Below are positions 3,227 to 63,764 of a stretch of DNA of 64,000 nt, piece after piece (positions within the stretch are counted from its first letter, which is position 1; every line of letters begins with the position of its first letter). This DNA comes from Methanofervidicoccus sp. A16 (GTDB lineage Archaea; AGJL01; Methanococci; Methanococcales; Methanococcaceae): NCBI RefSeq assembly GCF_003351865.1, contig NZ_CP022242.1, forward strand, positions 1,240,001 to 1,304,000, in the 5' to 3' direction. Position numbers and translations under genes: made by a program. The notes below the pieces were generated by a model. That model saw nothing but the letters and a program-made list of their open reading frames with translations. It did not search any database and was not told where the DNA came from.

Positions 3227-5265
3227 ATGAACAGGGTATTTCCATTCTCCGCAATAGTTGGACAGGAGAAGATGAAGAAGGCACTTATCCTGAATGCTAT
3301 CAACCCAAAGATCGGTGGGGTTTTAATTAGAGGAGAGAAAGGTACTGCAAAATCCACTGCAGTTAGGGCTTTAGCGGATCTTCTACCTGAGATAGAGGTT
3401 GTGGAGAACTGTCCATTTAACTGTACTGTTGATGGAGATCTATGTGATATCTGTAGGGAGAATATTAAAAAGGGAAATCTAAAAACTGTTAAAAGGAAGA
3501 TGAGGGTTGTAGATCTCCCTATAGGTTGTACAGAGGATAGGGTAATAGGTACATTGGATATAGAGAGGGCTATAAAAGAGGGTGTGAAGGCGTTAGAACC
3601 TGGAATACTTGCAGAAGCTAACGGTAATATACTCTACATAGACGAGGTAAATCTCTTAGACGATCATATAGTGGATATTCTGTTAGATGTTGCGGCGATG
3701 GGTTGGAATATCATAGAGAGGGAGGGAATAAAGATAAAACATCCCTCCAGGTTCATACTTGTAGGTACTATGAATCCTGAAGAGGGGGAACTTAGGCCTC
3801 AGATACTGGACAGGTTCGGTTTAATGGTTGATGTGGAAGGTTTGGAGGATGTTAAAGACAGGGTGGAGGTTGTTAAGAGGGTTGAGGAATTCAACAGGGA
3901 TCCAGAGGGGTTCTATAAGAAATTTGAGGAGGAACAGAATAAACTGAGAAAAAAGATAGAGAATGGAAGGAGGATTCTAAAGGATGTTGTAATTAAAGAC
4001 GATCTACTGGAGTTGATCGCCAGGATCTGTGTTGAGTTGAACATACCAACGAGTAGGGCAGATATAACTGTGGTGAGAACTGCAAAGGCAATAGCAGCCT
4101 TCAATGGAAGAACATACGTAAATATCGACGATATTAAGGAGGCCTGTGAGTTGGCACTACCTCATAGGATGAGGAGAAAACCCTTTGAACCTCCACAGTT
4201 AAATCAGGAGAAGATAAATGAGATAATAGAGGATTTTAAAAATAATAATAATTTAAAGAATGAGAATAATGATCTAAAAAAAAACGTTCTGAAGATGTAG
4301 AAATAGATAGTACTGAGAGTAGAAGACATGAAGGAGATAAAGATGATAGAGAGGGAGAAGGGGACAGAGATAGAGAATACAGGGGTATTCAGGGGGGAGA
4401 GGAGAGAGAGAATGGAGAGGGCTCCTCTGAAAGGGTATTCAACCCTAAGGGTGGAATAGATCCCAGGAATATACTGAAGGTCAAACTTAGGGACAACACC
4501 CTTAGACACTTCCAGGGGAGACATGTAGATAGTCTAAGTAGAAGGGGGAGGTATGTAAGTTATAAGATGCCTAAGGGTAAGGTAAGAGATATAGCACTAG
4601 ATGCCACAATCAAGGCAAGTGCTCCCTATCAGAGGAGTAGGTTAGAAAAATCCTCAGGAGATGTGAAGTTAATAATCAAAGAGGAGGATATAAGGGAGAA
4701 GGTTAGAAAGAGGAAGATACTTACAAATATACTCTTCGTTGTAGATGCAAGTGGTTCCATGGGTGTTATGAGGAGAATGGAGGCTGTTAAGGGGGCTATC
4801 CTCTCCATCCTCATGGACGCCTATCAGAAGAGGAACAGGGTAGGTATGATAACATTCAGAGGGAAGGATGCTGAAGTAGTACTGCCCTTTACCTCCTCGG
4901 TGGAGTTGGCAGAGAGGTGTTTAAGGGATATTCCAACTGGAGGTAGAACTCCTCTTTCAAAGGCATTCTTAAAATCCTACGAGGTTGTTAAAGGTGCTAT
5001 CAGGAGGGATCCAGATATAGTACCTATGGTTATATTTATAAGTGATTTTAAACCTAACGTATCTGTTGCTAAGGACTATCTAGAGGAGATATATCAGGTA
5101 TGTGAGAGGTTTGTAGAAGAGGGTATAAACGTTATACTTATAGATACAGAGGTTGATTCCTTTGTAAAGATAGGTATTGGAAAAAGAATAGCAGAAAAAT
5201 TCGGTTTTCCGTACTACCATATAGATAAACTTACCTCCGAGAGTATATTGGAATTACTCCAGTAG
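3227..5265 (+). CDS. Magnesium/cobalt chelatase ATPase-VWA protein (ChlI-ChlD), joined by an apparent -1 frameshift at 4279-4285
   Basis: AAA+ motor and VWA adaptor of a tetrapyrrole metal chelatase, in a cobamide-making methanogen probably serving CobN-type cobalt insertion. Frame 1 (3227-4300, 357 aa) has Walker [10 protein letters not shown] (36-44), a four-Cys insert (C62, C66, C73, C76) and Walker B ILYIDE (135-140), then an Asn/Lys-rich tail. Codons from 4285 to 5265 in the -1 frame encode an acidic Arg/Glu linker, then the conserved ChlD-type region and a VWA domain with MIDAS DASGS (4744-4758). Between the upstream stop of that frame (4270) and the ATG at 4567 there is no ATG, GTG or TTG, and 4567 lies inside conserved sequence. 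The frames overlap at A_AAA_AAC (4279-4285), part of a nine-A run. Slippage would give a ~679-aa full-length protein; without it, a 357-aa ChlI-like subunit. A one-base polymorphism is the alternative. The 3' end overlaps convergent bioD by 12 bases. Confidence 0.8.
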
Positions 5266-63708: not shown

Positions 63709-63764
63709 TACCTCAGAGCTCATACGGATCATCATAAATCAGTATAGGATTCTCATCATAGGTA
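63709..63764 (-). ncRNA. C/D box sRNA (2'-O-methylation guide)
   Basis: Read on the minus strand: terminal stem TACCT, box C ATGATGA (63759-63753), guide GAATCCTATA, box D' CTGA (63742-63739), spacer TTT, box C' ATGATGA (63735-63729), guide TCCGTATGAGCT, box D CTGA (63716-63713), closing AGGTA. Both box pairs are perfect, the spacing between D' and C' (3 nt) and the 56-nt size are those of archaeal sRNAs. By the D+5 rule the D guide would direct methylation of the C within target AGCUC (AGCTCATACGGA). Targets not identified. Confidence 0.92.

Follow-up and report, generated by a model that had tools for sequence, protein, structure and literature searches.

The window analysed here, a 64,000-nucleotide stretch of the Methanofervidicoccus sp. 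A16 genome, contains a chelatase gene that is divided between two overlapping reading frames on the forward strand. The first of these (the 0-frame) runs from an ATG at 3227 to 4300 (+) and encodes a 357-aa ChlI/BchI-type AAA+ ATPase, the predicted short product, with matches to AAA_lid_2 (2.2e-21), AAA_5 and Mg_chelatase. Near its 3' end the frame reads CTA AAA AAA AAC GTT CTG AAG ATG TAG (4274-4300). Within this segment lie a run of nine A (4276-4284, +), with C4285 next, and the slippery heptamer A_AAA_AAC (4279-4285, +), which has the canonical X_XXY_YYZ form in the 0-frame register. Both elements, and the fit of the heptamer to -1 slippage, had been put forward in an initial annotation and were verified in the sequence. 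The 0-frame stop, a TAG at 4298-4300 (+), follows four codons past the heptamer and holds the same position as in L010, a split relative. The second frame, displaced by -1, opens past a TGA at 4270-4272; a ribosome that had slipped would resume in it at CGT 4285 and continue to its end at 5265. The stretch from 4285 to 5265 (+) encodes a linker and the VWA domain of a ChlD-type subunit (VWA_2, 4.2e-13), the VWA domain proper, with a MIDAS-like DASGS, being located at 4729-5049 (+; -1 frame residues 149-255). Slippage would add these 326 aa to 353 aa of the 0-frame, giving a predicted product of 679 aa. On recomputation, this size and the 357 aa expected upon termination agree with those given earlier.

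A comparison with TIGR02442 (the NCBIfam model 'putative cobaltochelatase', 641 positions) revealed that the 0-frame corresponds to positions 1-344 and the -1 frame to positions 348-641. By this match, the two halves are one TIGR02442 protein cut at the slip site. As in fs-chlD genes, in which the shift may be -1 or +1, a ChlI-type frame is followed by a VWA frame, here at -1, and a conserved in-register slip site lies inside the frame overlap. Overlapping frames are also seen in coupled operons, and the locus could be read as two ordinary genes, with the VWA protein made separately by coupling or reinitiation. However, the downstream frame lacks any ATG, GTG or TTG until 4567-4569 (+), about 94 codons in. 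The initial annotation had placed 4567 inside conserved ChlD sequence, and the earliest possible start indeed falls within the TIGR02442-matching region, similarity to the model beginning at frame residue 13, ahead of 4567. Comparable starts are not conserved in relatives, where second-frame start codons occur anywhere between 48 and 513 nt past the slip, which argues that separate initiation of the second frame is not a conserved property. In addition, the same linker region is present in fused relatives. Production from two independent genes is thus very unlikely.

A truly fused gene (with ten A) or a broken one could likewise show such a layout, through misreading in sequencing or a frameshift acquired recently. 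A homopolymer run and the fusion of the nearest two relatives are in line with this explanation, but the split arrangement is common to L010 and nearly the whole order, and both halves are intact and conserved. The stop of L010 is homologous to that of the window gene (CAA GTG AAG ATA TAG vs GTT CTG AAG ATG TAG), so that a missed A in the window sequence would require an identical error in L010, and ten A are therefore unlikely. In a coding-potential scan of the whole 64 kb for frame changes followed by a late start, the chelatase gene was the only strong case; two weak cases elsewhere resemble ordinary gene overlaps. With a single strong transition, the window assembly does not appear indel-rich. 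Error or recent mutation is, on this evidence, very unlikely.

Recoding of chlD-type genes, which the initial annotation mentioned as an earlier proposal, has in fact been published. It was reported in 2013 for organisms that include Methanocaldococcus and Methanococcus (Antonov et al., 2013; PMC3711429), was discussed in later reviews (PMC5009743, 2016; PMC8211752) and was extended by Kuznetsov and colleagues (Kuznetsov et al., 2022; PMC9227772). Because chlD frameshifting is already in the literature, the window gene adds one species to known fs-chlD recoding, with which it shares the gene, the -1 direction, the A-run signal and both predicted products. A 2020 study by Antonov in MBE is reportedly the central one on fs-chlD programmed frameshifting.

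Conservation of the arrangement was followed in a Methanococcales sample of 36 genomes; a phylum-level search around the window returned the same 36. The chelatase gene is present in 26 of these genomes, and 25 loci include the VWA half. The halves are split in 23 of the 25 loci and, in all 23, the VWA half is at -1 and an in-phase slip run lies at the overlap. The window arrangement is therefore not due to chance. For alignment, a main family of 23 Methanococcales loci was defined with a divergent pair, L031 and L032, left out. The six-A core of the heptamer is invariant in this family (23/23) while the columns flanking the slip site have a mean identity of only 68% upstream and 64% downstream, which favours recoding. 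The final slip codon is AAC in 21/23 loci, the pooled AAC share of Asn in these genes being 27%, whereas the fs-chlD site in the 2016 review is A_AAA_AAR (PMC5009743). A length of nine A prevails (19 of the 23 loci), against eleven in a single locus and six in three others, and the run terminates at codon position 2 in all but one (22/23). A stop immediately 3' of the heptamer is found in nine split loci (AAC or AAT, then TAA or TAG). The Methanococcus-type loci L028-L030 have six A only, keep the A_AAA_AAC/T register and show the stop straight after.

The divergent chlD genes L031 and L032 (from G018 and G015, respectively; genus code g2, taken as Methanococcus) group with fused archaeal genes. 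They are nevertheless split by -1 at TCT AAA AAA AAA CGG, and this split is possibly of independent origin.

The window gene is very probably a recoded cobaltochelatase-type chlD gene, in which ribosomal -1 slippage yields a ChlI-type short subunit and a ChlD-type long subunit. Ribosomes would translate the AAA+ part and arrive at CTA AAA AAA AAC. The fraction that stays in frame would terminate at TAG 4298 and release the ChlI-type subunit. The slipping fraction would move back one base, with tRNAs on AAA AAC (the nine A may permit several re-pairings), and would then translate the linker and the VWA domain in the -1 frame to complete the ChlD-type subunit. Both subunits, together with a CobN encoded elsewhere in the genome, would then constitute an ATP-driven metal chelatase. 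The presence of one copy of cobN and of a single ChlI match at E 1e-20 in the window genome, i.e. of no separate small-subunit gene at this threshold, is also in keeping with fs-chlD. With register, heptamer and position conserved, no separate chlI and cobN present, the claim of the initial annotation that two subunits arise from one gene is the best-supported reading.

Slippage could also take place during transcription. A runs of nine to eleven, as in most relatives, are long enough for RNA polymerase to slip, and mixed mRNAs with nine or ten A, each faithfully translated, would give the same two products. The initial annotation had allowed for this mechanism; nine A could indeed slip in transcription, but polymerase slippage alone fits worse and is an unlikely explanation. 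L028-L030 retain the exact register and the adjacent stop in spite of having six A, which favours the ribosome as the slipping machine. Furthermore, Herpetosiphon-like loci have seven A, and termination of the run at codon position 2 is a constraint that polymerase slippage does not need. We infer slippage itself, its occurrence at the ribosome and not at RNA polymerase, and the use of both products.

The genomic distribution of the partner subunit is less uniform. By their coordinates, cobN and the chelatase gene are adjoining in several relatives. G015 has no CobN match, and the I part of its chlD (L032) is without its N-terminal portion, a pattern in keeping with joint loss. G016 and G017 (genus code g2, taken as Methanococcus) contain CobN and no ChlI/ChlD-type gene (best match ~2e-9), which makes the chelatase role in methanogens less certain and was counted against the explanation preferred here. 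Extra CobN-like copies in G003, G005, G006 and G034 are stop-interrupted or in pieces.

Several candidate stimulators of slippage were considered. Folding of the RNA 3' of the slip site in the window is no better than that of shuffled sequence (z +1.0 to -0.3, for nested structures). Among relatives, the downstream fold z is near zero on average, with the slip position misassigned in some Methanococcales rows and correct in the Chloroflexia rows; an upstream Shine-Dalgarno-like element gave no consistent match, under the same caveat for some Methanococcales rows. Herpetosiphon-like loci are the sole group with a fold z of about -2, at 75 nt. Neither of the stimulators of canonical -1 frameshifting, a hairpin or an upstream Shine-Dalgarno-like element, was thus found in the window, and no conserved stimulatory RNA structure or Shine-Dalgarno-like enhancer emerged from the fold scores and the upstream scan. 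A role of the slip-site stop as a frame lock was also dropped, as the TAA of NTAAAA falls in the +1 frame and not in the -1 frame. The A run alone may suffice, since a nine-A chlD cassette shifted 40% in E. coli, within a range of 10-63% for chlD cassettes that include those of relatives, according to the 2013 paper (PMC3711429). An Rfam search of the surroundings of the chelatase gene yielded neither a riboswitch nor any other family. A C/D box small RNA, sR3 (RF01133), was matched close to the distal end of the window, at 63711-63763 (-), barely over the gathering score.

The two nearest relatives of the window gene in the tree, L008 (G022) and L009 (G025), form with it a three-species cluster of which the window gene is the split member. 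Both are single fused frames (701 and 652 aa, respectively) and keep NTA AAA AAA AAC in the same phase. A -1 slip would meet a stop after two codons in L008 and after eight in L009, and the predicted slip product is a short protein closely resembling that of the window gene. Fused relatives without a slippery motif had been named by the initial annotation as evidence that would speak against recoding; both fused Methanococcales relatives retain the motif in phase. The inverted arrangement itself, in which slippage leads to the short form, was absent from that annotation. Compared with L010, L008 shows a net gain of one base after the run and L009 a net loss of two. Because these indels differ, the two fusions appear to have arisen independently from an ancestral split state, although a parsimony count equally allows one fusion plus a reversal. 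The L008 and L009 sequences come from draft assemblies, in which base errors are possible.

The inverted polarity is on firmer ground in the Chloroflexota, for which two class-level samples were used: L139-L218, around L096 and taken as Chloroflexia, and L222-L271, around L107, an Anaerolineales MAG (Anaerolineae). A gene was scored as carrying the signal if its linker contained an in-phase A_AAA_AAN followed, at most ten codons on, by a -1 stop, and expectations came from synonymous recoding in which every gene retained its own codon usage. The signal was present in 36/39 fused Chloroflexia genes, against 6.1 expected, and in 24/27 fused Anaerolineae genes, against 1.6 expected, or 60/66 when the two classes are pooled. 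In contrast, 41 fused control genes from other archaea and bacteria were at expectation (8 vs 7.5), and the notion that the inverted signal is a feature of all fused chlD genes was rejected. The -1 stop lies exactly one codon past the slip in 31/36 Chloroflexia genes and is immediate in one, while the frequency of a -1 stop at most one codon away from a random linker codon is 12%. Two of the genes, L151 and L154, have TAG and TAA, respectively, where most have TGA, so that the stop is kept and the 0-frame residue is changed. In split Chloroflexia genes, the 0-frame stop lies three to five codons on from the slip.

Since counts over related genes are non-independent, the number of polarity changes is the more careful measure. 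On trees built without the linker, there were at least three changes on well-supported branches in Chloroflexia (five by parsimony) and at least four in the second class (seven by parsimony); the sample of the latter combines best matches with deliberately picked fused genes, and its ratio of split to fused genes is not representative. In the available part of the 2013 paper, fused genes, with Chloroflexus aggregans as an example, are treated as plain fusions and no mention of a slip signal in the C. aggregans fusion was found (PMC3711429), whereas most fused Chloroflexia genes here keep the slip run and the -1 stop. No description of inverted polarity was found in the surveyed parts of the chlD-frameshift literature (PMC3711429, PMC5009743, PMC8211752, PMC9227772).

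Repeated flipping of polarity suggests selection for two products. As the signal is kept in both polarities, selection would act on the product pair and not on rescue of a broken frame. A related precedent is bacterial dnaX (tau/gamma), whose -1 slippage on an A run provides one complex with a long subunit and a short AAA+ one. In E. coli dnaX the slip product is the short one, a polarity shared by L008, L009 and most sampled fused Chloroflexota genes; the window gene has the opposite polarity (slippage to the long form), with no conserved Shine-Dalgarno-like enhancer or hairpin. We lean towards a slip signal that is polarity-neutral, with the two products selected at roughly comparable amounts, and with small indels adjacent to the slip repeatedly swapping which product needs slippage. 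The I and D subunits of such chelatases form a double hexamer (PMC7689651), and a putative slippage rate of about half of the ribosomes would make the polarities interchangeable with respect to such an assembly and would account for the ease of swapping.

If this is correct, many chlD genes annotated as plain fusions silently make the small subunit too. On comparative grounds, the repeated polarity swaps speak strongly for a need for both proteins, and re-annotation of many fused Chloroflexota chlD genes as two-product genes is suggested, which would alter inferences on genomes 'lacking' the small chelatase subunit. To our knowledge, well-supported cases of programmed frameshifting in archaea are very few. 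In Sulfolobus, a -1 frameshift on A_AAA_AAT has been shown for the alpha-L-fucosidase gene fucA1 (PMC8211752); slippage there restores one full-length enzyme, whereas the window chlD has two predicted products that could each plausibly serve as a subunit, and its signal is conserved order-wide. With this order-wide conservation and a eukaryote-like A_AAA_AAC, the Methanococcales chlD gene may offer a good system for tests of archaeal ribosome slippage.
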